DNA of 64,000 nt. Origin: a virus. Numbering within the stretch: position 1 is the first letter of the stretch; each line of letters begins with the position of its first letter. Both the position numbers and the translations under genes were made by a program. The DNA lies in the IMG/VR virus record IMGVR_UViG_3300009068_000028, positions 27,680 through 91,679 of that record; one strand, given 5' to 3'. Shown in pieces: positions 34,620 to 53,047 of the stretch. Under the pieces are notes generated by a model. That model did not search any database. It saw only the letters and a program-made list of their open reading frames with translations, and was not told the origin of the DNA.

Positions 34620-34691
34620 GCCCTTGTAGCTCAGAGGAAGAGCAGCAGGTTTCTACCCTGCGTGTCGCTGGTTCGATTCCAGTCAGGGGTT
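34620..34691 (+). tRNA. tRNA-Arg (anticodon TCT)
   Basis: Acceptor GCCCTTG/CAGGGGT, D arm GCTC/GAGC, anticodon stem GCAGG/CCTGC with loop TTTCTAC, T arm GCTGG-TTCGATT-CCAGT. One base separates it from tRNA-Ile. Its 3' end overlaps by nine bases the last codons of the opposite-strand Stealth-type gene. Confidence 0.9.
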
Positions 34692-35375
34692 CTCGTATTG
34701 CGAAGGATCTGGAAACATATCCTTTAAGATAAAATCAAGTATAAAGTCAAAGTTTGAGTCGTGACTAGATATGTAGTTTAGGTCTTCTTTAATGAGGTCG
34801 TGGAACTTACCCTTTAATTCTGTATTACTATATACTTTCACATCGTAAGTCTTTGTGCCACCTACATTATAAACATTTCCATATGTTGATCTATGCAGTG
34901 TTTTATGATTTAATACTTCAAGAAGCTTTGCCTTGTTCATAGGCATAGGAACATGTAGTTCGTAATCTAAAGTATTTGCAATACCCATTCTATTTAAATA
35001 GTTTTGTGTCTTGCTAAACAGTCTTTGATATCCATAATTGGTTTGTCCTGTGTCTGAATAAGATGCAAGAACTTCTTGGATTGTTCCAGAATAAAAGTAT
35101 TCAACCTTATCTAATTTTTTTACAGTAAAAAAGTCATCATTCATTAAAACAAAATCATCACTTATATCCTCTGTTGCACAGATAACATCTAATTGTTTCC
35201 AGACGTTAGGATGTCCTATACCAGTTTGTTGTACATAAATATAATCTCCTGTATACCAGTCTGGCTTGCCACCGACTACCCAGATACGACCTTCTGGTAA
35301 ATTTTTCACGGTAGATCTAATTGAGTATCTTAACTCTTCATTGTCTCCAGGACGGCAAACATAAACGTAATCCAT
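34683..35375 (-). CDS. Stealth-type sugar-phosphate transferase-like protein
   Basis: 230 aa. DYVYVCRPGDNEELRYSIRS, WKQLDVICATE, and ISDDFVLMNDDFF match the conserved regions of Stealth proteins, which transfer hexose-1-phosphate in capsule synthesis. It reads left from an AT-rich divergent promoter and adds another glycan enzyme to the phage. It ends inside tRNA-Arg. Confidence 0.75.
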   Translation of the reverse strand: MDYVYVCRPGDNEELRYSIRSTVKNLPEGRIWVVGGKPDWYTGDYIYVQQTGIGHPNVWKQLDVICATEDISDDFVLMNDDFFTVKKLDKVEYFYSGTIQEVLASYSDTGQTNYGYQRLFSKTQNYLNRMGIANTLDYELHVPMPMNKAKLLEVLNHKTLHRSTYGNVYNVGGTKTYDVKVYSNTELKGKFHDLIKEDLNYISSHDSNFDFILDFILKDMFPDPSQYENP

Positions 35376-38630: not shown

Positions 38631-38651
38631 CATTTGCTATATAATAATACT

Positions 38652-39272
38652 ATGGAAACTTCCCTAGTTAAACTAATCCCATTGAAGAAGAAACATGCTT
38701 TGGATCTTTACTTCAATGTTAAGTCAAATGATAATGTGTTTCGTAATCTTTTATGGGACACACCACAGTCAGTTCTTGACTATGTTGCAATCGTAAAGCA
38801 ACTCAAAAAGCATACATCCTTTGCGGTAATAGATAAGGACACCAACGCTATTGTTGGCACAACATCCTACGTTGACTATTCTACAGAAGACCGATCAGCA
38901 GAAATTGGCGGTACATTCTATTCTGAATCCGTATGGAGAACTCACGTTAATACCCATACAAAGTATCTAATGCTACAGAATGCATTTGAGATACTAGGAT
39001 GCGAGAGAGTAATGTTCAAGACAGATGTTCTCAATGAGCAATCAAAGAAAGCAATCCTAAGACTTGGTGCTACCTACGAAGGAACCAAGCGTCATAACAA
39101 ACTCAGAACTGATGGGACCTGGAGAGACACAGCATACTTCTCTATACTTGGTGATGAGTGGGATGAGATCAAGTCTACAATTTTCGGGGGAATCAAAAGT
39201 GATAACGAATATCCCCTATATAACAACATACCTATAGTACCTATAGAAGTATATAGACCTATGTGGTTTTGA
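38652..39272 (+). CDS. GNAT acetyltransferase (RimJ/RimL-like)
   Basis: 206 aa from the ATG at 38652, which has TATAAT (38640-38645) six bases upstream. Contains FAVIDKDTNAIVGTTSYVDY, the EIGGTFYSESVWRT acetyl-CoA binding region and LNEQSKKAILRLGATYEGTK, the RimJ/RimL pattern. It transfers an acetyl group, probably to a protein N-terminus or small amine. The 3' end is rich in CCTATAG words that continue into the next gap. Confidence 0.8.
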   Translation: METSLVKLIPLKKKHALDLYFNVKSNDNVFRNLLWDTPQSVLDYVAIVKQLKKHTSFAVIDKDTNAIVGTTSYVDYSTEDRSAEIGGTFYSESVWRTHVNTHTKYLMLQNAFEILGCERVMFKTDVLNEQSKKAILRLGATYEGTKRHNKLRTDGTWRDTAYFSILGDEWDEIKSTIFGGIKSDNEYPLYNNIPIVPIEVYRPMWF

Positions 39273-40003
39273 GCCTATAGACCTGTTTGACATCAGAGGA
39301 TACAGCTCGATACAGCCCATTTTAGAGCTTCTCAGAGCATAGTTATGCACAGTTTTATCCACAAAGATCTTACTGATATGGATATTATCTGACTGAAAGA
39401 AGATGTTTGAAAAGTTGTTTGATGTACTGAACTATATATAGTATGGATCGTAATGTCCAAACACTATATCTTGTGTCCCCAAACACCCAAATCCAGCCTT
39501 GTACCACATCTACCCCCATTTGTCAACCCCTATATGTAGTATATTTATGCCCAAAAAACCCTATATATTGTGTATAAATATATCAAAACATCCTATTTTA
39601 TATCAAAAATATCCACAAATCTGGGAAAAATAATCAAGGGTTCGTAATGTCTTTGTTTATAGTTATATAGGGGGAAATGCTTATACTTAGCTGCCCCAAA
39701 TATCTATACCAAACCATCCTATTAGACATGTCCACATTTCGGGGGTATCAAATAGAAGATCGTAATACCTTTAGTATATATATTACCTATAGGAGAAACA
39801 CTGTATCGTCTGATACCCTCCAAACTTTCTGGGATTTTTTGAGATGCCTCGTAATGTCTGTAGAATTTGGGAAAAATGTTTAGGGGTTCGTAATACATGT
39901 TCGTAAAGGGATGTTTGTTAGTATGTTATGACATGGCTCGGGCAAAAGTTATCCACAGAAAAATCCCCCACCTGTGAGTAGATGGGGGATTAGACTATTA
40001 CTG
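39273..40003. other. AT-rich non-coding gap, candidate replication origin
   Basis: 730 bases between convergent blocks with no credible gene. It has runs of CTATAT/TATAG words, TCGTAAT iterations (near 39449, 39640, 39752, 39847, 39885 and 39898) and TTATCCACA at 39355 and 39949, with a one-off copy at 39343 (TTATGCACA) and another near 39606. A GGCTCGGG box is at 39935. Confidence 0.5.
39962..39991 (-). terminator. terminator of the leftward small-gene array
   Basis: AATCCCCCA (39962-39970) pairs with TGGGGGATT (39983-39991); read leftward it is followed by TTTTTC. Confidence 0.85.
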
Positions 40004-40264
40004 TTAGACCGAAGACATCAAATCGTCTAAATGCTCGAAGCCTGTATCGTCAATGCCAAGACCAGCAAGCAATAAGTCGAATGTCTCGTTGATGAAATTA
40101 GTAGCAAGGTCAGTCGTGTCTACGATACCTTCGTTGATTGCGTAAGCAAGTGGCAAACCCAAATCGTTGTATTCGATAAAGTCTACAAACGCTGTGTCTG
40201 TTCGATAGTTGAGCCAAATGTCAGACAGAATAACTGTCTTGTTCTCAAAGGTAGTCGTAGTCAT
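40004..40264 (-). CDS. hypothetical acidic protein
   Basis: 86 aa, ATG at 40264 after GAGAAC; last gene of the leftward array. Contains DTAFVDFIEYNDLGLPLAYA and an acidic helical C-terminus (LLAGLGIDDTGFEHL). I do not recognise the family. It overlaps the upstream gene by 20 bases. Confidence 0.6.
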   Translation of the reverse strand: MTTTTFENKTVILSDIWLNYRTDTAFVDFIEYNDLGLPLAYAINEGIVDTTDLATNFINETFDLLLAGLGIDDTGFEHLDDLMSSV

Positions 40265-40445
40265 TGTGCTTGTTCTCTTTCTCATCTTTTAGTAAATCTG
40301 CCATTAGCAGAATACGGTTGATAGTTACATTGGGACTGATTTGGTGAATATACATTGCTACCGCTTCCAAATCCAGTCGTAGGTCTGAAACAAGATTGCC
40401 GATTGTTTTGGCAACTCGTTCATTGTCTGTTATTACTTTTCGCAT
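40245..40445 (-). CDS. hypothetical helical protein
   Basis: 66 aa, ATG at 40445 with GAGGAG four bases upstream and TATAAT near 40462-40467. Helical (ERVAKTIGNLVSDLRLDLEA). Unknown. Confidence 0.55.
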   Translation of the reverse strand: MRKVITDNERVAKTIGNLVSDLRLDLEAVAMYIHQISPNVTINRILLMADLLKDEKENKHNDYDYL

Positions 40446-40566
40446 TTCTCTCCTCAATCCATTATACCAAAAAAATGGTGGGAACGCAAGTCCGAAAGGA
40501 AATAAGAAACCTACGCCCCCACCAGTTTGTAGACGGAACCCCCATTCAACGTCTACCTATCTAGTA

Positions 40567-40914
40567 CTACATTGTACTAGAATCTGATATAACTATAGAT
40601 GGGTCCTTACGAATGTGATCGATTTCGATACCCCTCAGAATTTTGGTAATGCGTCGTGTAGGACTCTGGAGCTGGTCTGCAAACACCCACCAGTCACTGC
40701 CGTATTCATCCATCGGAAACTGGTCTGCAATCCAGGCAGTCTCATAGAAGTCACACTCAATGAGCACACCTGTCTCATACTTGCGTGTACCGTTGTCGTC
40801 AGACTCATAGATGTATGGTTCGATAGTTAGTTTGTCAGACCACGTAGTGCCAGCCTCTTTACTCCAATCCTCACGGTAGAAGATGTTGAGGTCAATCGTT
40901 CTATAGCCTTGCAT
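40567..40914 (-). CDS. hypothetical protein
   Basis: 115 aa, ATG overlapping the upstream TAA. Beta-rich with Trp and acidic residues (FYETAWIADQFPMDEYGSDW). A CTAGTAC dyad at its 3' end may terminate transcription. Unknown. Confidence 0.6.
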   Translation of the reverse strand: MQGYRTIDLNIFYREDWSKEAGTTWSDKLTIEPYIYESDDNGTRKYETGVLIECDFYETAWIADQFPMDEYGSDWWVFADQLQSPTRRITKILRGIEIDHIRKDPSIVISDSSTM

Positions 40915-41237
40915 TAGTACCACTCCGTTCGATATCCAGTTCCAGCACAGTTGCCACACGTTTCATCTTCCTCGCCATTAGCAGAGGCACACTGCTCACA
41001 CTCTACATCTCGTGAGACAGGAACTTCATAGTCTTCGCCATCTGGGACAGGGATTGTACCAACATAGTAACCCAAACGATTGACAGCGTGGTAACCACTA
41101 CAGATACTAATATAGTCGTCTCCAGCCAAGTAAGTCCAAACAAGTCCGTCTGCATTGTGTCGTACATCTTCCCAATCCTGAATCATCTCATAGCCAAGAC
41201 CAAACTTCTCTTCGGCTTCTTCCATTGTTATAATCAT
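40914..41237 (-). CDS. DnaJ-type zinc-finger protein
   Basis: 107 aa, ATG at 41237 after AAGGATTA. The C-terminus has CEQCASANG...CGNCAGTGY, a DnaJ-like zinc site (CxxC and CxxCxGxG). Contains WTYLAGDDYISICSGYHAVN; a similar motif occurs in the 42125-42364 gene (WTMVDGDG...GYRQFN), suggesting duplication. Confidence 0.6.
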   Translation of the reverse strand: MIITMEEAEEKFGLGYEMIQDWEDVRHNADGLVWTYLAGDDYISICSGYHAVNRLGYYVGTIPVPDGEDYEVPVSRDVECEQCASANGEEDETCGNCAGTGYRTEWY

Positions 41238-41250
41238 TACTAATCCTTTC

Positions 41251-41769
41251 TTAGAAGTGGAAGTCCACAGGGACGAGGAACCAAAGAGTATCATTCTCGA
41301 TACGGTCTTTGTTCATATGAACAGGGTTAGTTGACCAGTTGGCAAGGTCGTAGAAGTAAGAGTTGAAATCCCAATCACCTTGAATCATACCAAGCATTCT
41401 GCCAATACCATAGAGTCGCATACTATAATCCATAGCACCGTCAAACTCGTCAAAGACACCGTCAAGATTGATGTTGCTACGATTCCATTCATCACGGTAG
41501 CGATTGAATTCCGACATTCGTGCTTCGACACAATCCTTCAGTATCAATTCGAATGCTTCACTATCTTTAGAAGAAACAATCATGTTGATTGCTCCGTCAG
41601 TGTAGGGGTCGTTGTCAGTGTTGAATCGTCCACCACCAGTTACAAACCAGTCGTACCAAGCACCACCACCATATTCGTCACCAAGAATGTCTTGGAGTCT
41701 TTCTCGAACTTGGTCAATTGCTTCTTCAGGGCTGTCTGCTTTTACTGCGATGTATTGTAGAACGTGCAT
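41251..41769 (-). CDS. hypothetical protein
   Basis: 172 aa, among the longer proteins in the array. Contains EEAIDQVRERLQDILGDEYG and a GGAWYDWFVTGGGRFN glycine/aromatic stretch. Two promoters precede it: a copy of the 29-bp array promoter and a consensus TTGACA/TAAAAT pair (41799-41827, 17-base spacer). Confidence 0.6.
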   Translation of the reverse strand: MHVLQYIAVKADSPEEAIDQVRERLQDILGDEYGGGAWYDWFVTGGGRFNTDNDPYTDGAINMIVSSKDSEAFELILKDCVEARMSEFNRYRDEWNRSNINLDGVFDEFDGAMDYSMRLYGIGRMLGMIQGDWDFNSYFYDLANWSTNPVHMNKDRIENDTLWFLVPVDFHF

Positions 41770-41798
41770 GTGTTTCCTTTTCTTTAGGGGTAGTATCT

Positions 41799-41827
41799 AT
41801 TTTACAGCATGGAGCGGTATTTGTCAA
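41799..41827 (-). promoter_or_regulatory. consensus promoter inside the array
   Basis: TTGACA (41822-41827 on minus), 17 bases, TAAAAT (41799-41804). It lies downstream of the array promoter copy at 41844, so the gene has two stacked promoters. Confidence 0.75.
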
Positions 41828-41839
41828 GTATCACACTTC

Positions 41840-41965
41840 TCACAGTATACCCTTGACCACCGACACGAAATGATCCTCGCATAGATAGCCATAGTCCTCT
41901 ACGTCTCGTTTGGTAGCAGGTTCCTTACACCAAATCATTTCACACACATAGATATATGGTTGCAT
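41840..41965 (-). CDS. very small protein
   Basis: 41 aa, ATG overlapping the upstream TAA. Two Cys and a C-terminal end that lies on top of the next gene's array promoter (GTGTCGGTGGTC). Unknown. Confidence 0.5.
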   Translation of the reverse strand: MQPYIYVCEMIWCKEPATKRDVEDYGYLCEDHFVSVVKGIL

Positions 41966-42132
41966 TATTCGTTATCCTGAATGTCAAAGTCCCACTGTGC
42001 GTGGTTCTTGTATGGTTCGAAGTCGTCTATAATCCATTCGTCCAATGCTTGATAGGCTGCATCTTCACTCTCTGCTTCAACAGGAACGAGGTACTCAATC
42101 TGCACGGTTGCTGTGATTAGATATTTACGCAT
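41965..42132 (-). CDS. small hypothetical protein
   Basis: 55 aa, ATG at 42132 overlapping the upstream stop. Pattern YLITATVQIEYLVPVEAESE then a helix and an aromatic loop. Similar in shape to the 42364-42525 and 42884-43048 proteins: a beta-hairpin, an A-x-S/D-x-x-A-A helix, an acidic tail. Confidence 0.55.
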   Translation of the reverse strand: MRKYLITATVQIEYLVPVEAESEDAAYQALDEWIIDDFEPYKNHAQWDFDIQDNE

Positions 42133-42364
42133 ACATCCTCTTATCGTTAGTTACGAATACATCTTCCGACCACGGCTTCTCGGTAATGAAATAGCCAAGA
42201 CGATTGAATTGGCGGTAGCCATTCCAAAGATTAGCATACCGTCCGTCACCATCTACCATAGTCCATACATAGCAAGGAAGAGTAGTGTCAGGGATATCCT
42301 CAAGTTCTAAAGCCAATGGGGTAGTTGGCAGATAGGTGTCTTCCCATTCGTCCCAAGTAATCAT
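42125..42364 (-). CDS. hypothetical protein
   Basis: 79 aa. Contains CYVWTMVDGDGRYANLWNGY, like the 40914-41237 protein's internal motif. ATG overlaps the upstream TAA. Unknown. Confidence 0.55.
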   Translation of the reverse strand: MITWDEWEDTYLPTTPLALELEDIPDTTLPCYVWTMVDGDGRYANLWNGYRQFNRLGYFITEKPWSEDVFVTNDKRMYA

Positions 42365-42525
42365 TACTTATCTCCAAAGTTATTGCTGTCATAAGGGTCA
42401 ATGAATGCTTCCCAGTCACCGTCAGGCATATCCTCGTGAACAAGAATTGCTTTCTCGATTGCTTCTTCTTCGCTGTTTGCTTGAATCCAGTAAGTCGCCT
42501 GGTATTCTACTTGATATACTTTCAC
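42364..42525 (-). CDS. small hypothetical protein (GTG start)
   Basis: 53 aa from GTG at 42525 (an ATG two bases upstream is followed at once by TGA). Starts VKVYQVEYQATYWIQANSEE, then EAIEKA helix and acidic tail; resembles the neighbouring small proteins. GAGGAG is upstream. Confidence 0.5.
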   Translation of the reverse strand: MKVYQVEYQATYWIQANSEEEAIEKAILVHEDMPDGDWEAFIDPYDSNNFGDK

Positions 42526-42526
42526 A

Positions 42527-42667
42527 TTACTCCTCGTCCATAAATTTGATAAACACTTCTACTAACTGTAATGCTATTATACCAGTGAGGTACGACATAG
42601 AACTCATACTCTTGAATTCCTGAATCTTATCTAGAATCTGTTGCTTGGCTTCTTCTCGTTCACTCAT
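42527..42667 (-). CDS. small protein with a hydrophobic stretch
   Basis: 46 aa. Helical N-terminus (EEAKQQILDKIQEFKS) then MSYLTGIIALQLVEVFI, possibly membrane-associated. Ends in GDEE-like acidic tail. Unknown. Confidence 0.45.
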   Translation of the reverse strand: MSEREEAKQQILDKIQEFKSMSSMSYLTGIIALQLVEVFIKFMDEE

Positions 42668-42894
42668 AGGGACACCTCACCGTATTGGTCATAGTTCTCG
42701 GCAAGGCTTTCGTCTTCCCAATCTGAATTGAGATGCCACTTGGTTGCTTCGTTATTGAAAAGATTGACAAGCATATTCTCAGCCTCGTCGTCAAAGTGAC
42801 CAGTATCCCAATCACTGAATCCAACTACAGCAAACTTGATTTGGGCAGGGTATTTGATATGGTCATAGATATAAACCATTACCTTAGTTGTCAT
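42664..42894 (-). CDS. hypothetical protein
   Basis: 76 aa, ATG at 42894 with GAGGAGGA upstream. Alpha/beta (VMVYIYDHIKYPAQIKFAVVG) with an acidic C-terminus. Overlaps the neighbours. Unknown. Confidence 0.55.
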   Translation of the reverse strand: MTTKVMVYIYDHIKYPAQIKFAVVGFSDWDTGHFDDEAENMLVNLFNNEATKWHLNSDWEDESLAENYDQYGEVSL

Positions 42895-43048
42895 CTTCGT
42901 CCTCCTCAATCTCTTCTACCTCAACCTCGTACACACCGTCATAGTTTAGATTGTCGTAGTGATAACCAATCTCCTCTGCCTTTGCCTGACTGTCTGCTTC
43001 AATCGTGCCAGTAAAGGTGACTAGGGTTTTTACATAATACTGAGCCAT
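42884..43048 (-). CDS. small hypothetical protein
   Basis: 54 aa: AQYYVKTLVTFTGTIEADSQ, AKAEEI helix, then a very acidic tail (EVEVEEIEEDEDD). First gene of a seven-gene operon running from the array promoter at 43078-43106. Unknown. Confidence 0.55.
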   Translation of the reverse strand: MAQYYVKTLVTFTGTIEADSQAKAEEIGYHYDNLNYDGVYEVEVEEIEEDEDDN

Positions 43049-43256
43049 TGGGCTACCTTTCTTTTTGGGTTACCTCTATTATATCGTTGACCACCGACAT
43101 CAAACTGGGTAAATTCGGGAGAATTCGTAATGAGTTCGTAATGATTCGATAATTACTGTTTGTTTATTATGTCAGCAGCCCGAGCTGCCTGTGGATAAGT
43201 CTGTGGAGATCCCCCAAAGGGGGAGGCAGTTTATACTGTTGCCCAGCAGTTACGGA

Positions 43257-44279
43257 TTATACTCCCAGCATTACGGAAGCGACTACACGAGCCAAGCGGT
43301 TCTTCTCTGCGTTGAGAGCAGGGTCAAGTCCACTAGCACCAGCGAGAATGTTCTCGTTGTTTCCGCCACGAGCGGTGCGATACCAGTCAAGGCGTTCCGT
43401 CAAGGCGTTGAGAGTACCCCAAGCCGTTCCAGTAATTGTGTTGTTGTATTGCCCAACATAAATGTCGTTGATAAGGTCAATCTTGTCGTTGTGCTTCTTG
43501 AAAGAACCTTTGGCATCTTTTTCTGGGGCAGGGTAAGCAAGAGAAACAATCTTGTCAAACTCTGCTTTAGTAACTTCAGTTTCAATCATAGCGTTAGCCA
43601 TAACAGAAAACTCGTCAAGGTAAGTCTGTGCCAAGCCAAGTGCTTCACGAGCAACCTGAACACGACCCTCTGCCGTCTGCGTGTGACGGATTTTGAACGA
43701 CTGCTTTACCTTACGGTTAGAACCAATACCGCCACCCAAAGCAAGGTTGAGAGTGTTAGCACACACAACACGGACAGGCGTGATACTTGCCATAATGGAG
43801 ATAGAGCCATCGTGAGATGTGTTGATAAGCAGGTAGTTCTCTACCTTGTCAGCACGACCATTGGGGTCAAGCACAATGTCGTTGTCAAGAGCGAGAGAGC
43901 CAAAAACTACACGACCACCCTTGATTGAACCAGCAGTCTCCCAACGACCACCACCGTCAAGCAGGTTGTCACCAAAGGTGAACAGGTCTTCGTTTTGGAG
44001 AGTGTGGTAGCGTTCACCCACAACGCCAAGCACATCATTCTGTGACTTGTCGAATGGGTTGGTACGACAAACAAAATAGTTTGTCTTGTCAGATACATAA
44101 CCTTCTGGGAACGAGAGTTCCTCAAGACGAACATTCCAGTTGTCAAGGTGAGCCAACTTGAGCATTTCGTCTGTGGTAACTTCGTCTTCAAAGACAGTCC
44201 CAAGTTTGTGCCAAGCAGGTTCTCGCAATGAAGCAAAAGCCACTTCGCCGTTAGCACCGATTTCTAATTCGTGAGCCAA
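43257..44279 (-). CDS. DUF932 (LGT_TIGR03299-like) protein
   Basis: 340 aa, TTG at 44279 with AAAGGAA ten bases upstream. The DUF932 pattern includes EPAWHKLGT, NYFVCRTNPFD, LGVVGERYH, GGGRWETAGS, VVCANTLNLAL and KIRHTQ. This phage/plasmid family is of unknown function, sometimes near DNA-modification genes. It is by far the largest protein in the leftward array. Confidence 0.8.
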   Translation of the reverse strand: MAHELEIGANGEVAFASLREPAWHKLGTVFEDEVTTDEMLKLAHLDNWNVRLEELSFPEGYVSDKTNYFVCRTNPFDKSQNDVLGVVGERYHTLQNEDLFTFGDNLLDGGGRWETAGSIKGGRVVFGSLALDNDIVLDPNGRADKVENYLLINTSHDGSISIMASITPVRVVCANTLNLALGGGIGSNRKVKQSFKIRHTQTAEGRVQVAREALGLAQTYLDEFSVMANAMIETEVTKAEFDKIVSLAYPAPEKDAKGSFKKHNDKIDLINDIYVGQYNNTITGTAWGTLNALTERLDWYRTARGGNNENILAGASGLDPALNAEKNRLARVVASVMLGV

Positions 44280-44429
44280 TGTATTTCCTTTCGTTGTTGT
44301 TGATAATCTAATTATACACCTGACCACGGACATCTAACTATTCTGGGGAACATTCTGGGAGGTTCGTAACCTAAACGTAATAACTATGTTAGGACATGGC
44401 GGCTCGGGGATCCCAGCTGACAAAACAAA

Positions 44430-44587
44430 AATCCCCTGCTACCAGCAATCTATCCAGACGCTTCGCAGGGGACTTATGTATGGAAGTTTATTTCAATTAG
44501 ACGGCTTCTCATTCCACCGTAGCCCTAGTCTAACCTAGACGGTTATCATCTACACACCGACAAACTCACCCCATATTTCAGGGGAAG
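44430..44587 (-). ncRNA. non-coding RNA segment after tRNA-Asp
   Basis: About 160 bases with no reading frame follow tRNA-Asp. They contain hairpins CCCCTGAAATATGGGG, GTCTA-GGT-TAGAC and ACGG...CCGT enclosing GAATGAGAAG. They end in a terminator (CCCCTGC/GCAGGGG, 44431-44473, then TTTTTG). The AATGAGAAGCC motif recalls the guide-proximal part of TnpB-type omega RNAs, but no TnpB is present. Confidence 0.4.
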
Positions 44588-44659
44588 CGACCTCATAGGG
44601 ACTCGAACCCTAACCTCTACCTCGACAGGGTAGCGTGATAACCTTTTCACTATGAAGCC
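44588..44659 (-). tRNA. tRNA-Asp (anticodon GTC)
   Basis: Acceptor GGCTTCA/TGAGGTC, D arm GTGA/TCAC, anticodon stem CTACC/GGTAG with loop CTGTCGA, T arm TAGGG-TTCGAGT-CCCTA, discriminator G. The only tRNA on the minus strand, co-oriented with the leftward array. Confidence 0.9.
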
Positions 44660-44718
44660 AATGTTTCTCTGTGTAGTTATAGATTGGGCAGTTTAGACTG
44701 TTACCCAGCAGTTGCTCG

Positions 44719-45177
44719 TTAGAGGAGTTCCATCACCGTGTTGTAGGTGCTGGCATTGACTTCCTCTTGGTTGGTCATTTTGAGAACTTTGAGGTTCTTT
44801 TTGAGCAAGTCCAACTTGGTGGTGTATTCACGACCATAGTGCTGACGGTCATTAGGGTTGGTGGGCTGTTCTGGTGCTTGGGGCAGAGCAAGCAAGTCAG
44901 TATTGACCTGAATGTTTACGCCATAACCACCATAACGGTTTCCAGCACTAACACGAACAAGAGCGTTGGTGTCATACTCGCCACCAATGTTGTCAGGGTT
45001 CTTGATTGCCTCAACAACAGCATTGAGAACCAACTCTTGGTGTGCCTTGTATGCCTGACGGTATGCTTCCATATCGGCAGGGTATGTAGCCATCTCTGCC
45101 TCAATCTTGGCAATAGTAGCCTCAACATCAGCAATCAGAGTAGCGGTTGGGATTTTCACGGAGAGTGAACGAGCCAT
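44719..45177 (-). CDS. hypothetical helical protein
   Basis: 152 aa. Helical halves (ADVEATIAKIEAEMATY and TKLDLLKKNLKVLKM) around a Gly/Tyr-rich loop (GNRYGGYGVNI). AAAGGAC-type RBS, a degenerate array promoter at 45210-45239. Unknown; likely an oligomeric helical protein. Confidence 0.6.
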   Translation of the reverse strand: MARSLSVKIPTATLIADVEATIAKIEAEMATYPADMEAYRQAYKAHQELVLNAVVEAIKNPDNIGGEYDTNALVRVSAGNRYGGYGVNIQVNTDLLALPQAPEQPTNPNDRQHYGREYTTKLDLLKKNLKVLKMTNQEEVNASTYNTVMELL

Positions 45178-45294
45178 TGGTTTAGTCCTTTCGTTTGGCT
45201 TATATCTATATTATATCATTGGGGTATGACATATAACTATTGAGTTAGGTGGGCAGTTTGACTTGATACCCAGCAAGCAGACTAGGGTCTGACC

Positions 45295-45447
45295 TTAGTT
45301 GCTGGAAACCGTAGTCCAGCGAGGCTGTCCTGCGACATCAAGACGAACACGGAACGAACCGTTTGCGTTCTTGACAACTTCCTGAACGATACCAGAAACG
45401 CCAGACTTCTGCGTGGTGAACGACTGACCGATTTCGATTTGCGACAT
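45295..45447 (-). CDS. small SH3-like protein
   Basis: 50 aa from ATG at 45447 after AAGGA. Sequence IGQSFTTQKSGVSGIVQEVV, then SFRVRLDVAG, resembles a small beta-barrel (KOW/SH3-like). A consensus promoter (TTGACA 45526-45531, TATAAT 45503-45508, 17 spacer) drives it. Confidence 0.55.
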   Translation of the reverse strand: MSQIEIGQSFTTQKSGVSGIVQEVVKNANGSFRVRLDVAGQPRWTTVSSN

Positions 45448-45502
45448 TGTGTACCTTGCTTCCTTGTAGTGAGCCAACTGTTTTGTTTGCTTCGTTATTA
45501 CC

Positions 45503-45531
45503 ATTATACAGGAAAGGAAAGAGTTTGTCAA
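45503..45531 (-). promoter_or_regulatory. consensus promoter inside the array
   Basis: TTGACA (45526-45531), 17 bases, TATAAT (45503-45508). A copy of the array promoter also lies 70 bases upstream (45599-45627). Confidence 0.75.
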
Positions 45532-45788
45532 GTCTTTTTCTCAACTTTTTTATTTTTTTTGTGGGGACTTCCGACTTCGTTTCCCTGCCTGTAATACAAG
45601 TATACCAACGACCACCGACATATAACTAATCGTTTCGGGGGATTTTTGTAACAGTTCGTAACCTGTTTGTCATAACATAGGCGGCTCGGGGATCCGCAGG
45701 GCATAGAGAAAGGACAGTTTATAAAGGACATGTCCAGGTCCTCGTCCAGTGCAGGGGAAAGGACAAACAATACCCTGCAGCTGGGAGC

Positions 45789-46178
45789 CTAACTCTCTTC
45801 GATTTCTCCTACATCGAATGACTGGACACAGAAATCTTCTACGTCTGTGTTGTAGCAATCAAGGTTGAGTTCCCCAACTTCGAAATGTTCAATGTCAAAG
45901 TCAGCAGGGACTAACATTGTTGCTTCAACAGTCAACGGAATCGTGACGGTAATCTCACGAAGGAGCGAGATACCAAGTACGTCAGCAACAGAATTCGCTA
46001 CTGTCTGAACGTCAATGTCCTCAGCAATTGCTTCCAAGAGAATCAATCGGATGTTCTCGTTTTCCTCGTTACGACGGATAGACATACCAAGATTATCTTG
46101 ATTGAGACCTGTAGCCTGTGCTTCCAAGTCTTTGATGTACTCATTCATTTTGCTAAGTACTGGGTGATTGTTTTCCAT
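45789..46178 (-). CDS. hypothetical acidic protein
   Basis: 129 aa, acidic C-terminus with FDIEHFEVGELNLDCYNTD. Second gene after the 46178-46438 ORF, coupled by TAATG. Unknown. Confidence 0.6.
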   Translation of the reverse strand: MENNHPVLSKMNEYIKDLEAQATGLNQDNLGMSIRRNEENENIRLILLEAIAEDIDVQTVANSVADVLGISLLREITVTIPLTVEATMLVPADFDIEHFEVGELNLDCYNTDVEDFCVQSFDVGEIEES

Positions 46179-46438
46179 TAGTTGTCCTCTGCTTCTTGTG
46201 CGATACCGTTGAGTTCGTCAATTGTCTGTGTGAGTACCTGAAAGTCCTCTTCCGACAAAAGTAGTTGTGACATTGCGTGTGCCATAAGTCCTGTGATTGT
46301 CTGCCCGAAAATGTTGAGAGCAATCCGACGGTCTTCATCGGTTTCTGCGAACAGTACCATACCAGACGCAGTCTGTGTCATTACATCCTGCGAAACATCT
46401 TCGGCAACCTGCCGTAGTCCAAATGCTATGTCAATCAT
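46178..46438 (-). CDS. hypothetical protein
   Basis: 86 aa, helical (FGLRQVAEDVSQDVMTQTAS). Its array promoter copy lies at 46466-46494, overlapping the end of the upstream gene. Unknown. Confidence 0.6.
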   Translation of the reverse strand: MIDIAFGLRQVAEDVSQDVMTQTASGMVLFAETDEDRRIALNIFGQTITGLMAHAMSQLLLSEEDFQVLTQTIDELNGIAQEAEDN

Positions 46439-46487
46439 TCTTTGTCCTCTCGTTGTTGTATTACCATTATACCGTTCACCACGGACA

Positions 46488-46916
46488 TCAAACTATGTCC
46501 ATTAGTTTGCCATTGACTAATACCTGTGGTCGTTCAGGGTAGTGGCGTACCCAACCATAGTCCTCAAAGGTGAAACGGATACCATACACCTCATAAATAA
46601 ATGAACGTGCCTGTCCAGAGATATCTATGAATTTGTCAAGGGTAGACAAATCGAAATTCGGAATGTCACCCTGTTCAGAGTAGTCACCAATAACAACTAC
46701 CCTGTCACCAGTCCAACGACCAATGAAGTCTGCCATTACCTCTGCCCAGAAATCTCCACCACCACGCATAGGTGAGCAAGTGGTGAGGACATACATCATA
46801 TCCGAAAGTGATGCCTCGTGACCTGTGTGTTCACGTTGCTTCGCACCCAGACCAATGTCGTGAGGGTGAATGACTTCTTGCTTGTCAAGGTTGTAAATGC
46901 TGTGGTATTGTCCCAT
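46488..46916 (-). CDS. conserved-type hypothetical protein
   Basis: 142 aa, starts MGQYHSIYNLDKQEVIHPHD, a beginning that recurs in actinophage hypothetical proteins. Contains a GRWTGDRVVVIGDYSEQ strand-turn-strand and aromatic C-terminus. Array promoter at 46946-46974. Unknown activity. Confidence 0.65.
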   Translation of the reverse strand: MGQYHSIYNLDKQEVIHPHDIGLGAKQREHTGHEASLSDMMYVLTTCSPMRGGGDFWAEVMADFIGRWTGDRVVVIGDYSEQGDIPNFDLSTLDKFIDISGQARSFIYEVYGIRFTFEDYGWVRHYPERPQVLVNGKLMDIV

Positions 46917-47044
46917 TGTGTGTCCTTTTCTTTGTCTGTCTTATAAGTATACCCCAGACCACGGACATGAAACTCTGGGAATCTGGATAGTTAGTCGTAA
47001 TTCTTAATAACGTTTAGGTAACGAAGCGGCTCGGGATCCCCTAC

Positions 47045-47212
47045 CTACCTCACATATTTCTTATCGAGAACATCATAGATATATGCGTTAGGATAAGTAA
47101 CCTTGACAGAAAGTAGGAATCGCATAGCAGCTTCTTCATTACGGAATGTAGCGAGTTTACTCTCTTTACCCTCGCCAGCCCACACCTGATATTTGAGTAC
47201 ATAGTCAGTCAT
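47045..47212 (-). CDS. small hypothetical protein
   Basis: 55 aa, starts DYVLKYQVWAGEGKESKLAT; another of the small beta-helix proteins (with an A-A-M-R helix). Coupled by TAATG to the next gene. Unknown. Confidence 0.5.
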   Translation of the reverse strand: MTDYVLKYQVWAGEGKESKLATFRNEEAAMRFLLSVKVTYPNAYIYDVLDKKYVR

Positions 47213-47307
47213 TAGTAGTTCTCTCCGAATATATCAAGTATAGCGGATACCTGTTCATCTGTCAACCTGTCAACAACTTTCCAGTCGATTACGTTTTCCC
47301 AGTCCAT
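47212..47307 (-). CDS. very small protein
   Basis: 31 aa, one helix (DRLTDEQVSAILDIFG). It is supported by coupled stop/start codons on both sides. Confidence 0.45.
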   Translation of the reverse strand: MDWENVIDWKVVDRLTDEQVSAILDIFGENY

Positions 47308-47591
47308 TAGCAATCACCCTCTACGTCCTCAAAGATAAATGCGTCAAGACGGTGTTGGTCAACAAAAGTACCTGCGTCAACATACGGACTGTCCTTGTAA
47401 GTGACTCCGTGTGGCAATTCGATTACTTCATCATAGTCCCCTGCCGATACTGCCACAACGGCGGCAACGGCAGACTGTACCATAAACTGCGGAATTGGGG
47501 GGTAGCAATTCGATGAAAAGTGAATACTGATAGCGTCCTCTAAAGAGAGGTGAGCGTCAGTAGCGAGAGAGTAAGCGGTTGAGTATCCCAT
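47307..47591 (-). CDS. hypothetical protein
   Basis: 94 aa, Pro/Tyr-containing loop (NCYPPIPQFM), hydrophobic helix (VQSAVAAVVAVSAG) and acidic C-terminus (EDVEGDC). Array promoter variant at 47616-47644. Unknown. Confidence 0.55.
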   Translation of the reverse strand: MGYSTAYSLATDAHLSLEDAISIHFSSNCYPPIPQFMVQSAVAAVVAVSAGDYDEVIELPHGVTYKDSPYVDAGTFVDQHRLDAFIFEDVEGDC

Positions 47592-47637
47592 TAGTGTCCT
47601 TTGTTCGATAGTCTAATTATACAGGGTAGGTCTGACA

Positions 47638-47916
47638 TCAAACTAATGTGTAAGTCCAAATTTCTGTTTCGTTGGCACAGTCCCAGATAGCCTTTTGTAC
47701 GAATTGGATAGCCAATTTTCCAGCGGTATCCAAGTCAGCCACCCAAACACTACGGTCACAAAACACTTCATCAGTTTCAGGATTAGTCCACACTCCAACA
47801 TATTGTCCGTCAAGTGTATCGTCAAGGGTAGTTTCACCAATAGCCACCCAATAGCCAGTCTTGGCGTGAGAGAGAATGAAAGTGTCATTCAGTTTGAGGT
47901 AAGTACCGTCTTTCAT
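47638..47916 (-). CDS. hypothetical protein
   Basis: 92 aa, ATG at 47916 after AAAGGACA. Beta-rich (TYLKLNDTFILSHAKTGYWV, GQYVGVWTNPETD). Array promoter at 47944-47972. Unknown. Confidence 0.55.
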   Translation of the reverse strand: MKDGTYLKLNDTFILSHAKTGYWVAIGETTLDDTLDGQYVGVWTNPETDEVFCDRSVWVADLDTAGKLAIQFVQKAIWDCANETEIWTYTLV

Positions 47917-48043
47917 AGTGTGTCCTTTCGTTGTCATACTATCATTATACCAAGTACCACCGACATGAAACTCTGGGATTTCGGGAAACATATCGTAAGG
48001 TTAGTAATGAGTTTGTTATGACAAATGGGCTCGGGCGACCCTG

Positions 48044-48595
48044 CTAGATAGCAGAGCCTCTCACGACAATCCAAATCAGAGCCTGTGCGGTGCGAGGTGT
48101 CAAACCAAACTCACCAGCAACCTTGCGAACGGCGTTAGCGATAGCGTGATACTGTCCCTGCGTAGGGCTGTCCGTAGGCATTTCGGCTGCTCTCATCATC
48201 CATACATCGACAACCACAGCGTCAGTATCGCCAAAGATAGCACGAGCGAATGCGTTAGTTTTGAGACCTTTGAGACCGTCAATGCCTTCGTTCAGCACAT
48301 CATTAGCCATTTTAGTGTTGTTTTTGAGACCATTCACGTGGTATCCAAGCGAGAATGCGACTGCCTTAGTGATGTTGCTTGCCCAACGCTCACGTGGGGA
48401 GAATGCGGAGACAACGCCAGCACCAATCTCAAGCGAGGCATTGAGGTTATTGGCAACCTGCTGTGCGACTTCCTGTGCTTCGTGATACCAGACACTAGCC
48501 TGTTCGACCTGTCCAAGTGTCGCCTTGAGAATGAGGTTACGGAACAAATCCGTAGCAGTAGCGGTTACGATTTCGTTTGCGGTGAGAGTAGTCAT
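48044..48595 (-). CDS. conserved-type helical DNA-associated protein
   Basis: 183 aa, ATG at 48595. The conserved stretch GAGVVSAFSPRERWASNITK and TDAVVVDVWMMRAAEMPTD resembles a phage family with a helix-hairpin-helix glycosylase-like shape. DNA binding is suggested, not shown. Array promoter at 48626-48654 and a GGCTCGGG box upstream. Confidence 0.55.
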   Translation of the reverse strand: MTTLTANEIVTATATDLFRNLILKATLGQVEQASVWYHEAQEVAQQVANNLNASLEIGAGVVSAFSPRERWASNITKAVAFSLGYHVNGLKNNTKMANDVLNEGIDGLKGLKTNAFARAIFGDTDAVVVDVWMMRAAEMPTDSPTQGQYHAIANAVRKVAGEFGLTPRTAQALIWIVVRGSAI

Positions 48596-48735
48596 TACTT
48601 TGTCCTTTACTTTGTTGATAGTTCTATTATACATCTGACCACCGACATATAACTAGGAAAAAATCCAGGGGAATCTTAAAGTGTTTCGTAACTAAATTGC
48701 CCGATCCAGATCAGCTCGGGACCTGTGGATAACTT

Positions 48736-48804
48736 TTAGTCGTTAAACCACGCCAGGAATATGATTAGTATCCCCAGCGTGGCAACGATTACAAACTCAA
48801 TCAT
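48736..48804 (-). CDS. transmembrane peptide
   Basis: 22 aa, IEFVIVATLGILIIFLAW: a single hydrophobic helix. Its ATG overlaps the previous stop. Such short membrane peptides can be toxins or inhibitors, but that is speculation. Confidence 0.4.
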   Translation of the reverse strand: MIEFVIVATLGILIIFLAWFND

Positions 48805-48979
48805 TCTCTACGCCATTCCAACAAGCAGAGATAAAACGGTCAGCAATAAATCGTTTGTTGTCCTGTGCCATCAGTCCAGCAAAATCGTGAATGAGAATAT
48901 CGAATGTCTGCTCATCTATTTTGAGAGCGTAGGTGTTCAGCAATTCTGAAACGGCTACATAGTCTTTGCGTGTCATCAT
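48797..48979 (-). CDS. hypothetical protein
   Basis: 60 aa from ATG at 48979 (TAATG coupled). Helical (DYVAVSELLNTYALKIDEQT). Unknown. Confidence 0.5.
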   Translation of the reverse strand: MMTRKDYVAVSELLNTYALKIDEQTFDILIHDFAGLMAQDNKRFIADRFISACWNGVEND

Positions 48980-49176
48980 TAGGATACACTCACCCAAGCC
49001 ATAGCGGTACGCAAAAGGTGGTTGTAGTCACCAGACATACTCTCTTTGAGATATTCGTCAATTTCCTCTTTGGAAACTTCTGCGTTACGGAGAGCCTTCT
49101 GAACAGCACCCATAATTGCGTAGGCGTTGCCGTCTTGCCCAATGAGTTCGACTTCGATTTCTGGATACTTTGTCAT
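48979..49176 (-). CDS. hypothetical protein
   Basis: 65 aa. Strand-helix pattern IEVELIGQDGNAYAIMGAVQ, and a helical C-terminal. Coupled by TAATG. Unknown. Confidence 0.5.
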   Translation of the reverse strand: MTKYPEIEVELIGQDGNAYAIMGAVQKALRNAEVSKEEIDEYLKESMSGDYNHLLRTAMAWVSVS

Positions 49177-49358
49177 TAGTTTTCTTCCTTTTCGTTTGCT
49201 TTTTGTTCTGCCAATTCGAGCATACGGTTTCGTTCTTTTTCCGTGAGCATAGCCCAAGCGTATCCAAACGCATAGGCGTAAGCCATATCACTTTGTCCGT
49301 TGTTTGCCTTTTTGAGATTGGCGATTACTTCATTTGAGCGGTTGATGTTACTTGTCAT
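49176..49358 (-). CDS. hypothetical protein
   Basis: 60 aa, helical with a Tyr-rich turn (AYAYAFGYAWAML). First gene of the four-gene operon behind the array promoter at 49383-49411. Unknown. Confidence 0.5.
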   Translation of the reverse strand: MTSNINRSNEVIANLKKANNGQSDMAYAYAFGYAWAMLTEKERNRMLELAEQKANEKEEN

Positions 49359-49409
49359 TTCTTGTCCTTTGTTCGTATTACTATTATAACCTAGACCACC
49401 GACATCAAA

Positions 49410-49574
49410 CTATTCGTTTTCACGAATGGCTTGTGTCTTGATTGCCTTGCGAGTACGCAAACGATTTGGTCGATTGTCGTGAGTGCCAGCCGCCGATGAA
49501 CGACGGATTTCACGCATAGCCTCAATATAGGGCTTGTTCTCAATACCTTTGTGAGTTGGGTTCTTTTTCTTCAT
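49410..49574 (-). CDS. small basic protein (leaderless)
   Basis: 54 aa, Lys/Arg-rich (MKKKNPTHKGIENK; NRPNRLRTRKAIKTQ), probably nucleic-acid binding. The ATG lies six bases after the -10 of its array promoter (49581-49609), so it is leaderless, unlike most array genes. Confidence 0.5.
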   Translation of the reverse strand: MKKKNPTHKGIENKPYIEAMREIRRSSAAGTHDNRPNRLRTRKAIKTQAIRENE

Positions 49575-49702
49575 AGTCTTATTATACATCAGACCACGGA
49601 CACCAAACTGGGATTTTTGGGGAAAACGCAATAATGTTCTTAATTACGCAAGAAATCTGCGTGGCTCGGGGATCCTGTGGATAACCTCTGGGGATAACTC
49701 CC

Positions 49703-49849
49703 CTAGCAGGGAGCGATATCCTCATTTGGCACAATAGCAACGGTATCCGTTCCAAGCACCAGAATGTGCGACCATTCATCGCTCTGGAAAATCAACTCGG
49801 CACGACGGATATCCTCGTGGTCAGTACCAATGTAGTTTACGAATGTCAT
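49703..49849 (-). CDS. small acidic protein
   Basis: 48 aa, RRAELIFQSDEWSHILVLG. Array promoter at 49877-49905. Unknown. Confidence 0.45.
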   Translation of the reverse strand: MTFVNYIGTDHEDIRRAELIFQSDEWSHILVLGTDTVAIVPNEDIAPC

Positions 49850-49900
49850 TTTTTTGTCCTTTTCTTTGTTAGTCTAATTATACTGCCTAGCACCGACATA

Positions 49901-50074
49901 TTACTCTGCGTTGCTCCCATAAAACTGGACTCCGAATCCGCATACGGTACAGTCTGCCCAAATTATCTCAGAGTCACCAAGGCGTTTAGGCTGTTGGTCA
50001 AGGTCTTCAGTGAATAACGTTCCCCTGTCGCAGATATAGCATTCTGCCTCATAGGTTATGACTCGCTTGCTCAC
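49901..50074 (-). CDS. zinc-ribbon protein (GTG start)
   Basis: 57 aa with CYICD and CTVCGFG zinc pairs. GTG at 50074 overlaps the previous TGA. One of several tiny zinc-ribbon proteins of the array; a protein-binding role is likely, not shown. Confidence 0.55.
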   Translation of the reverse strand: MSKRVITYEAECYICDRGTLFTEDLDQQPKRLGDSEIIWADCTVCGFGVQFYGSNAE

Positions 50075-50241
50075 GCTACCTCCGACAATTCGTCTGCGGA
50101 TACAGAGACATTACCGATGATAACGCCTATCGCACCCATGTTCACTAATTCGTTTGCCACAAAGTATCGGCATTCGAACGGAACATTATAGGCGATAAAC
50201 TTACCGTCTCCGTAGTTTGCTGTAATCTTGACCATCTTCAT
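50071..50241 (-). CDS. small hypothetical protein
   Basis: 56 aa, beta-rich (KMVKITANYGDGKFIAYNV). ATG 50241 after AAAGGACAG. Array promoter at 50265-50293. It resembles the 51903-52034 protein (V-N-M-G-A/F-E-M-G-A pattern near the C-terminus), suggesting duplication. Confidence 0.5.
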   Translation of the reverse strand: MKMVKITANYGDGKFIAYNVPFECRYFVANELVNMGAIGVIIGNVSVSADELSEVA

Positions 50242-50291
50242 ATTTCTGTCCTTTTCTTTCTCTAAGTATAACATCAACCACCGACACATAA

Positions 50292-50441
50292 CTAGCCAGC
50301 GAAGTCCCAAGGGGAGACATCAAACTCCCAAACGCTCCAAGTGTCAGGCAATTGCCTAGCACAGCCTTCACAGGCTGCCTGAGAGATATTTCCCTGAGTA
50401 ACTCCAACGGTGGCGAGGTTGTCGCAGAATTCACATTCCAT
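50292..50441 (-). CDS. zinc-finger protein
   Basis: 49 aa with CEFC near the N-terminus and CEGC about 20 residues later. Array promoter at 50466-50494. Unknown partner. Confidence 0.55.
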   Translation of the reverse strand: MECEFCDNLATVGVTQGNISQAACEGCARQLPDTWSVWEFDVSPWDFAG

Positions 50442-50565
50442 ATTTTTTGTCCTTTCCTTTCTCTAATTATAACACTGACCACGGACACCAAACTATCTGG
50501 ATTCAGGAAAATTATCCACAGCCACGTAATTGCCCTGTGGATAAGTCGGCTCGGGCTCCGCAAAA

Positions 50566-50624
50566 ATCTTGCGTGGGGAGAGATTTATTTGCTCTTGCGA
50601 GGCTCACTCTCTCCCCTGCGAGAT
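50566..50624 (-). terminator. long hairpin with conserved TTATTTGCTC loop
   Basis: An 8 + 9 base-pair stem with a single bulge (50566-50583 with 50608-50624) encloses TTTATTTGCTC...GAGGCTCAC. Read leftward it is followed by TTTTTG, so it acts as a terminator for the gene at 50624-50851. The loop recurs elsewhere (see findings). Confidence 0.6.
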
Positions 50625-50851
50625 TAGACTACATAACGCTTGTGGATTTCCATAGCGTCACGAGCGATAAGCGTAGTCCAGCCTTTGGGAGACTCGTCGA
50701 TTGCGACAGCGTAGGCAACATAAGGCTCGTTAGCCTCAATGCCAAACTGCTTACGGTAAGGTGTGCCAACATAAATTGACTCCACCTGCTTGACTTCGCC
50801 AACATATTTGTTGTCGTGAGACTGAATTGTGTATCCGATTAGTTCTTTCAT
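50624..50851 (-). CDS. hypothetical protein
   Basis: 75 aa. Beta-rich (VGEVKQVESIYVGTPYRKQF, YVAYAVAIDESPKGW). Array promoter at 50879-50907; terminator just downstream. Unknown. Confidence 0.55.
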   Translation of the reverse strand: MKELIGYTIQSHDNKYVGEVKQVESIYVGTPYRKQFGIEANEPYVAYAVAIDESPKGWTTLIARDAMEIHKRYVV

Positions 50852-50905
50852 TTTTTTCCTTTTCTTTCTTGTATTACAATTATACTGCCGACCACCGACA
50901 TATAA

Positions 50906-51067
50906 CTATGCCCAAATATCTAAGAGGTTTTGGTAAGTGACCATTCGTGCGTAGTGAAAGGTTTCCATAACCTTATCGCCTCGCTCAATTGCGTCTGCCA
51001 TATCCTTTTCGTTGTCAGCGATAAATCCAACAATCATAGCGGTTGGGAGAGTGATTTCGTTTTTCAT
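50906..51067 (-). CDS. hypothetical protein
   Basis: 53 aa, helical (KDMADAIERGDKVMETFHYA). Its stop lies on the upstream promoter copy of the next gene. Array promoter at 51092-51119. Unknown. Confidence 0.5.
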   Translation of the reverse strand: MKNEITLPTAMIVGFIADNEKDMADAIERGDKVMETFHYARMVTYQNLLDIWA

Positions 51068-51209
51068 AGTTTGTCCTTTGTTCATACCTTCATTATACAG
51101 TCGAGCACCGACATGAAACCCATCAATTCAGGGGAAACGCAACTATCTTCATAAAGACGCAATAAACTTGTGCCGCCCGAGCCCAGGGTATGTCAGGACA
51201 AAATCCTCC

Positions 51210-51395
51210 CTAGAACCAATCTTCTTCAGTAGTAGACACACCAAGAATTCCGCCTGGCAAATAGAATGGGCGAGCATCCTGGTGACAGAAGAGGCAACGC
51301 TGAAAGCCATCAGCATATTGGAAAATCTGGGAAGTCTTTTCCCAGCAGTTGTGACAGGTGTGGACAGGGCGAGAGAATTCATCAAATGTGTTCAT
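51210..51395 (-). CDS. zinc-finger protein (leaderless)
   Basis: 61 aa, ATG at 51395 six bases from the TATAAT of its array promoter. CHNC and CLFCH give one zinc site. Unknown partner; the second leaderless array gene. Confidence 0.55.
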   Translation of the reverse strand: MNTFDEFSRPVHTCHNCWEKTSQIFQYADGFQRCLFCHQDARPFYLPGGILGVSTTEEDWF

Positions 51396-51512
51396 ACACA
51401 CATTATACCAAAGACCACGGACACGTAACTCTGTGGATTCAGGAAAAAGGATCTTAATTACGTAAAGAGTTTGCTTGATCCAAAATGCCCGAGCCAGCCT
51501 GTGGATAACTTT

Positions 51513-51560
51513 GGGGCTAGGTTTATTTGCTGTGGATAAGTACAGGCTCACCCTAGCCCC
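51513..51560 (-). repeat. hairpin with conserved TTATTTGCTG loop
   Basis: GGGGCTAGG (51513-51521) pairs with CCTAGCCCC (51552-51560). The enclosed loop carries the TTTATTTGCTG...AGGCTCAC variant of the array hairpin and a TTATCCACA site (51531-51539). No U-run follows, so its role as a terminator is uncertain. Confidence 0.5.
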
Positions 51561-51569
51561 TGTGGATAA

Positions 51570-51845
51570 CTATGCCTTGTTTTCTTTGCCACCGTTTTGG
51601 ATACGGACAAGCGTACGGTCTACGATTTTGGAAACCAAACGCTTGGGGCTACGGTAAATTTCACTAGCCTTTGGGTAGACAATGGTGTAGGAAGCCCAAC
51701 CGACAGCATAATCGGTACGAGCGATATCCTTTTCCACGTCTTCACGGAAAGCGAGAAATTCGCCAAGCGTATTGGCAACGTGGACAACGGTCTTACCGTC
51801 CCAACGGCGTACGAGGTGGAATTCGATTTCTGGAATGCTTTTCAT
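51570..51845 (-). CDS. hypothetical protein
   Basis: 91 aa, VVHVANTLGEFLAFREDVEK, Arg/Lys-rich C-terminus (RSPKRLVSKIVDRTLVRI). Array promoter at 51879-51907. Unknown. Confidence 0.55.
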   Translation of the reverse strand: MKSIPEIEFHLVRRWDGKTVVHVANTLGEFLAFREDVEKDIARTDYAVGWASYTIVYPKASEIYRSPKRLVSKIVDRTLVRIQNGGKENKA

Positions 51846-51902
51846 TTTTGTCCTTTTCTTGTTTTTGTTTATATCTAAATTATACCAGCGACCACGGACA
51901 CG

Positions 51903-52034
51903 TTACTCGTGGTGGACGGTGACAGCGAGTGCTCCCATTTCGAACATAGTTTCGACTGTGACATCTACCATCCAAGGGTCTACTAAAACGCTTACGTTTT
52001 TTGGGTTGGTGGCGAAGATTGCTTTGATTTCCAT
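51903..52034 (-). CDS. small hypothetical protein
   Basis: 43 aa. Its stop overlaps the array promoter below it. Similar ending to the 50071-50241 protein. Array promoter at 52060-52088. Unknown. Confidence 0.5.
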   Translation of the reverse strand: MEIKAIFATNPKNVSVLVDPWMVDVTVETMFEMGALAVTVHHE

Positions 52035-52212
52035 TTTTCTGTCCTTTGCTTATATTCATATTTTACCACGGAGCACGGACACGTAACCCTAGAATCCAGG
52101 AAAATTCAGGGGAATTTCGTAACAATTCGTAACTTAGTTGCTAACAGCCTGTGGATAACTTGCTCGGGCTGCCTGTGGATAACTTTTTGGGGGTGTGGAT
52201 AAGTCGATCTGG

Positions 52213-52308
52213 CTACTGTTCCAAATAACAGGCTAGACAAATCTCATAGGCAATAAATCCTAGAGTGTCTTCATCAATTTTTCGTCCACAGTCATTACAC
52301 TTAGTCAC
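52213..52308 (-). CDS. mini zinc-ribbon protein (GTG start)
   Basis: 31 aa with CNDC and CLAC, so just enough for one zinc site. It is translated right after the upstream gene (4 bases). Unknown. Confidence 0.45.
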   Translation of the reverse strand: MTKCNDCGRKIDEDTLGFIAYEICLACYLEQ

Positions 52309-52311
52309 AGT

Positions 52312-53033: not shown

Positions 53034-53047
53034 TTTTGTCCTTATCT

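Follow-up and report, generated by a model that had tools for sequence, protein, structure and literature searches.

What is the function of a gene-free stretch, rich in short repeats, at which two blocks of phage genes converge? The stretch in question (39273-40003) lies in 64,000 nucleotides of viral DNA, in the following referred to as the window, which are part of a 91,679-base virus record (the contig) in IMG/VR; all coordinates given here are those of the window. It is flanked by a rightward gene for a GNAT acetyltransferase (38634-39272) and by a leftward gene (40004-40285). In a first-pass annotation, made from the letters of the DNA, this gap had been read as an iteron-type replication origin. 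That reading was right in pointing to a special site marked by iterated elements and DnaA-type boxes, but its core has to be reconsidered, as the homologous gap of isolated phages holds the left boundary of a direct terminal repeat (DTR).

Content and conservation of the convergent gap

The gap contains no gene, just as annotated; the sole listed open reading frame of at least 60 amino acids within it is a mechanical one of 68 (39677-39883). The element TCGTAAT occurs five times in it, always on the plus strand (39448, 39642, 39760, 39849 and 39888), whereas 0.10 copies are expected from the contig-wide plus-strand rate (Poisson P ~1e-7); when the gap was shuffled with its dinucleotides preserved, 0.05 copies arose on average and two at most. 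Two exact DnaA boxes (TTATCCACA), at 39355 and 39949, had likewise been counted correctly, and this number was reached in 0 of 1000 shuffles; the single GGCTCGGG box, at 39935, is also present. The words said to be common to this gap and a second one at 55.1 kb are real: CCCCCATTT has exactly two copies in the contig (39513 and 55093), and GTCAACCC is found at 39522, at 55130 and in two further places.

Other parts of the first description need correction. There is no copy of CTATATAG in the contig, where CTATATATAG is present instead. The AT content of the gap is indeed raised, but modestly so, with a GC content of 36.4% as compared to 39.7% in the contig and 22% of 731-base windows lower still. 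Furthermore, neither TTATCCACA nor GCTCGGG is specific to the gap, as all 14 contig copies of each are spread within 39273-55180.

The gap is 83-90% identical to its counterparts in six relatives. This conservation is about that of codon positions 1 and 2 in the flanking genes and exceeds that of fourfold sites in most comparisons. Judged by its sequence, the gap is therefore a real cis-acting region conserved by selection, and it was justified to suspect a special site of DNA transactions here; part of the conservation could also stem from recombination between terminal repeats. In a sigma-70 scan of the gap, promoter-like sites were not in excess over shuffles, and a search with Rfam returned tRNAs only.

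The left genome end of isolates and its probable counterpart in uncultivated relatives

By tblastn, blastn and comparison of open reading frames, the contig is nearest to Streptomyces phages of the Stanwilliamsviridae. It is syntenic with EGole throughout, from portal, capsid and tail genes over helicase, primase, DnaE polymerase, recombinase and terminase to the convergent gap and the leftward block. Right of the gap, this block includes a DUF932 gene (43257-44333, minus strand), which is ~54% identical to its EGole homologue and serves as a synteny anchor, the latter sitting within the DTR of EGole. Elsewhere in the window, the product of 14851-15384, directly upstream of the large terminase gene, has a sub-threshold HTH match and is a candidate small terminase subunit; 34683-35375 (minus strand), which adjoins two tRNA genes, shows partial similarity to Stealth CR2 (below the cut-off) and matches a PHROG of unknown function; and one gene encodes a ribonucleotide reductase, not a terminase.

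We compared nine isolates of the Boydwoodruffvirinae: EGole, Riptide, NootNoot, MulchMansion, Yaboi, MindFlayer, Karimac, Wipeout and Coruscant. The homology of their convergent gap to that of the window is established, and each of the nine has its recorded left DTR boundary within this gap. Their DTRs are 10.7-12.6 kb long; exact identity of the repeats was verified for some of the nine, and the computed lengths equal the published ones for NootNoot (10,787), MulchMansion (11,127) and MindFlayer (12,198). The ends of BE1 and Coruscant were set by read-start pile-ups and 2-fold coverage (PMC5764925, PMC7650747). At the left boundary, all nine isolates carry the motif GTGTGTAAT(G/A)^, with the caret marking the cut. 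To its left, eight of them have an inverted pair of DnaA boxes (TTATCCACA/TGTGGATAA) at -93 to -95 and -69 to -71; Coruscant has no such pair, EGole and MulchMansion have additional boxes, and the stretch between pair and cut is unlike in the isolates' two main groups. To the right of the cut, inside the DTR, TCGTAAW is present four to six times on the plus strand and never on the other in 9/9 isolates, starting at about +213. The first TCGTAAA of this array lies at +213 to +215 in EGole, Riptide, NootNoot and MulchMansion, and some isolates have a TCGTAAG at +22.

The window is organized in a similar manner. Its gap has a tandem DnaA-box pair at a pitch of 12 bp (39343-39363, plus strand), formed by TTATGCACA (39343-39351) and TTATCCACA (39355-39363), one of which has a mismatch; the first box is 105 bp left of the first TCGTAA. 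Right of the pair follows the block ATCTTACTGATATGGATATTATCTGACTGAAAG (39367-39399, plus strand), nearly invariant in comparison with relatives, and then the first TCGTAAT (39448-39454). At 39513-39529 (plus strand) lie the words that recur in the 55.1-kb gap. The other four TCGTAAT belong to plus-strand composite elements of the form CTGGGAAAAAT..TCGTAAT (39618-39648, 39737-39766, 39825-39855 and 39864-39894), and TTCGTAAA comes next at 39900. Finally, a GGCTCGGGC box with an exact TTATCCACA (39935-39957, plus strand), members of the two DTR-wide families of 14, is followed by a hairpin that resembles an intrinsic terminator and belongs to the leftward gene block (39962-39991, minus strand).

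To see how widely this arrangement is shared, we scanned IMG/VR for the composite element and obtained 73 stretches, among which 47 loci combine four or more TCGTAAW on one strand, close to a composite element, with none or one on the other. In about half of these 47, a DUF932 homologue lies a few kb right of the array. When the scan loci are taken together with the first relatives (57 array loci), 34 carry two DnaA boxes in tandem at a distance of 105-111 bp to the left of a TCGTAA (116 bp in one case), 23 of them distinct by the sequence key used, as compared to 54 of 20000 random anchors (0.27%). The loci were picked by the composite element and not by DnaA boxes; they are related and hence not independent trials, and trying several TCGTAA per locus as anchors makes hits somewhat more likely, though not to the extent of the difference observed. 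The near-fixed spacing is thus established, although the pair is missing in 23/57 loci (~40%).

The same relatives point to the place of the cut. In contigs that retain GTGTAATG left of the array, TCGTAA mostly follows 20-21 bp after it. Because of this spacing, applied to the alignment with the closest relatives, we infer with moderate confidence a left end at about 39428/39429, uncertain by a few bases. At the aligned place, the relative L012 has GTGTAATG^GAG. Relative to the predicted cut, the first TCGTAAT would lie at about +20 and that of the first composite element at +214, as in the isolates; the DnaA pair would lie at -86/-74, within the isolates' range of ~70-95 bp, tandem and not inverted. 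We had also considered the TCGTAAT at 39448 as the cut motif itself, but dropped this idea, as GTGTAATG^ sits 20-21 bp to the left in relatives.

Given these correspondences, it is very probable that the left DTR boundary, and with it the left physical end of the genome, lies inside the gap. Three observations speak against this reading: the region is single-copy in the contig, the exact motif GTGTGTAAT(G/A) is absent from the whole of it, and the clade of the window is far from the isolates, as the DUF932 identity illustrates, so that its DTR could end elsewhere. A collapsed terminal repeat, on the other hand, would result in just such a contig, running from late genes through the gap and the leftward block into further genes. 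Likewise, among 14 long related contigs in which DUF932 was matched, not one has two copies of this gene, which is expected for collapsed repeats but is not proof of them.

The predicted terminal repeat

In the isolates, the right DTR boundary is marked by GTCAAGCCYTATGGGCGCACTA..^..TAACATTTCG, with TAACATTTCG ~20 bp past the cut, and this motif is partly retained in relatives. The window has GTCAACCCTTATGCCC, the counterpart of the isolates' GTCAAGCCYTATGGGC, at 55130 and TAACATTTCG at 55168, and the two are found together in the contig only at 55.13-55.18 kb. Together with CCCCCATTT at 55093, they outline a putative right boundary region (55093-55177, plus strand), and the boundary itself probably falls near 55.13-55.18 kb. 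The predicted DTR (39429-55165) would thus measure ~15.7 kb and be represented by one collapsed copy, filled with leftward early-type genes. The gap would share words with the 55.1-kb gap because the latter is the other DTR boundary. Unique DNA would have its right end at ~39428, and the DTR would extend from 39429 to ~55.16 kb; on a concatemer, we infer that the left end results from terminase cutting in the gap and the right end from cutting near 55.15 kb, with the DTR being duplicated.

The interior of this interval has a character of its own. CCACSGACA has 17 of its 18 contig copies within 39273-55180, and 21 leftward promoter-like sites (41865-53170, minus strand) have the common core TGTC[CG]GTG..N..TATAAT. 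Since the motif families are all but confined to 39273-55180 and the promoter core is shared, the interval is a distinct regulatory unit. By our count by eye, ~13 of the 21 sites have a composite CTGGGAA..TCGTAA-type element just upstream and in the same orientation. The promoter-like family as such (TGTC[CG]GTG..TATAAT, n=21) is almost limited to the predicted DTR. Eleven exact TTATCCACA lie within 48724-52905, between short leftward genes and in many cases beside GCTCGGG boxes. Repeated hairpin-like elements of the form TTTATTTGCT..GAGGCTCA, some adjoining DnaA-type boxes, are found at 50580-50620, 51500-51575 and 53045-53125 and have no match in Rfam.

The closest known counterpart is the left DTR end of the Boydwoodruffvirinae (as in EGole, Riptide, NootNoot, Karimac and Coruscant), which shares with the window the convergent gap, the DnaA pair left of the cut (8/9), the TCGTAAW array, which lies on one strand and within a long DTR whose genes run leftward, and the DUF932 gene near the end. 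It differs in DTR length (10.7-12.6 kb versus the predicted ~15.7 kb), in the orientation of the DnaA boxes (inverted versus tandem) and in the repeat (TCGTAAA versus TCGTAAT); moreover, the window is missing the exact GTGTGTAAT cut motif, and its motif families are multiplied across the DTR. As GTGTGTAAT(G/A)^ is missing from the contig, we wish to emphasize that the gap may be said to 'work like' a Boydwoodruffvirinae end, which does not imply membership in this subfamily; the phage appears to be a divergent actinophage related to the Stanwilliamsviridae.

Another phage for comparison is TunaTartare of the Loccivirinae. It has a comparable right-cut motif, TATGGGCGCACTA..^CATACAT, and a DnaA pair in a large gap, but its DTR measures 777 bp, its cut is free of an array, and the DnaA gap is 5.6 kb off. 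In its record (L029), a DnaA pair and a third box lie in this 1-kb non-coding gap (124545-125535), 5.6 kb from the DTR.

Possible roles of the DnaA boxes and the array

The module at the proposed genome end would consist of a DnaA-box pair, about 75-90 bp, the cut, 20 bp up to a TCGTAA, about 190 bp and an array of composite CTGGGAAAAWT..TCGTAAW elements. Most likely, the pair and the first TCGTAA are part of the end-forming site, and the array further inside is the binding site of a phage protein with a second place of action at early leftward promoters. The latter is probable because some 13 promoters carry the composite element upstream, and the nearly fixed spacing to the cut suggests that the pair helps to form or copy the end. 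For the array and the pair, partly overlapping functions can be envisaged.

The array could serve to bind a phage regulator of early leftward transcription, being clustered at the DTR end and reused at DTR promoters; we put this forward tentatively. Other actinophages have stoperators and start-associated repeats, to which such an array may be likened. In addition to the promoters mentioned, an element-like site close to the gene furthest right in the DTRs of EGole and Yaboi agrees with this role, as does the co-occurrence of array and long early-gene DTR, neither of which is present in TunaTartare. Yet most intergenic regions in the DTRs of EGole and Yaboi do without the element while the end array is retained, and beside the array in the gap, no promoter core was found.

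The replication origin first proposed, at which host DnaA or a phage initiator would bind the box pair and TCGTAAW, melt the AT-rich DNA and load the phage helicase, may coincide with the genome end, but we consider it unlikely. A pitch of 11-12 bp is suited to DnaA oligomers, and tandem boxes at this pitch occupy a near-fixed place in 23 distinct contigs, matched by the inverted pair in 8/9 isolates. Since tandem or inverted pairs keep a near-fixed distance over a wide clade, a DnaA-dependent event at the end is possible. It also fits an origin that the iterated elements are all on one strand and that the boxes of TunaTartare remain in a large non-coding gap although the cut is 5.6 kb away. 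Iteron and DnaA-box origins resemble the gap in the pitch of the pair, the iterated short elements and the AT-rich DNA; they differ from it in that its elements are irregularly spaced, no adjoining initiator gene was identified, and TTATCCACA is scattered over the whole DTR in 14 copies. The pair is, as mentioned, missing in 23/57 array loci and in Coruscant. The GC-skew check suggested in the first-pass annotation gave a divided answer: the cumulative skew does peak and turn at 39-40 kb, yet this is also where the genes change direction, and the skew at third codon positions gives no replichore signal. Lastly, MiniFlayer and MulchRoom, two satellites that depend on a helper phage, have a terminase of their own and are missing replication genes. 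Neither has the array, the helper end motifs or DNA in common with the helper ends, which counts mildly against a shared helper origin.

Equally doubtful is a pac-type function, in which the TCGTAAW repeats would recruit the small terminase subunit to the left cut. Sites of the pac or cosB type typically carry repeats that all point the same way, and the array of 9/9 isolates, situated within the DTR and next to the cut, has such a uniform orientation. TunaTartare nevertheless makes it less likely that the array itself takes part in packaging: this phage cuts without any array, and the right-cut motif TATGGGCGCACTA recurs across subfamilies. Furthermore, the element is also found at promoters.

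The pair and the end might also be linked through replication: DnaA boxes at a near-fixed distance from the packaging cut would load a replisome at the genome end, and rightward synthesis would produce the 11-16-kb terminal repeat's second copy. We regard this as improbable; if true, it would represent a host-DnaA-directed origin coupled to terminus formation.

The DTR edge of coliphage T5 also invites comparison, with a ~10 kb DTR of early genes and a non-coding edge bearing iterated same-strand repeats, but the T5 repeat is TGTGCAAATCCGACA, its stop region is at the opposite repeat edge, its repeats come without a DnaA pair, and its DNA has single-strand nicks. The features named for the T5 stop signal are repeats, palindromes and DnaA boxes (PMC13250531). 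By analogy with its stop region (9140-10149) at the inner DTR edge, where nine same-strand 15-bp repeats span the boundary, the gap might be an injection stop signal of two-step DNA entry, but this is very improbable, as its position requires right-end-first entry (which the leftward DTR genes would suit) and the repeat-D stretch of T5 is without an exact DnaA box.

In the papers searched, no description of the module at the proposed genome end was found. How ends are formed and 10-16 kb duplicated with each packaging event is poorly understood in phages with very long terminal repeats, and a compact module that is conserved in isolates from Streptomyces as well as in uncultivated relatives, and that keeps its DnaA boxes at a near-fixed distance from the cut, offers a defined target for this question. 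It also calls for caution, as terminal modules can be misread as origins. Conversely, the module allows the genome ends and DTRs of uncultivated relatives to be predicted from contigs in which the repeat has collapsed.
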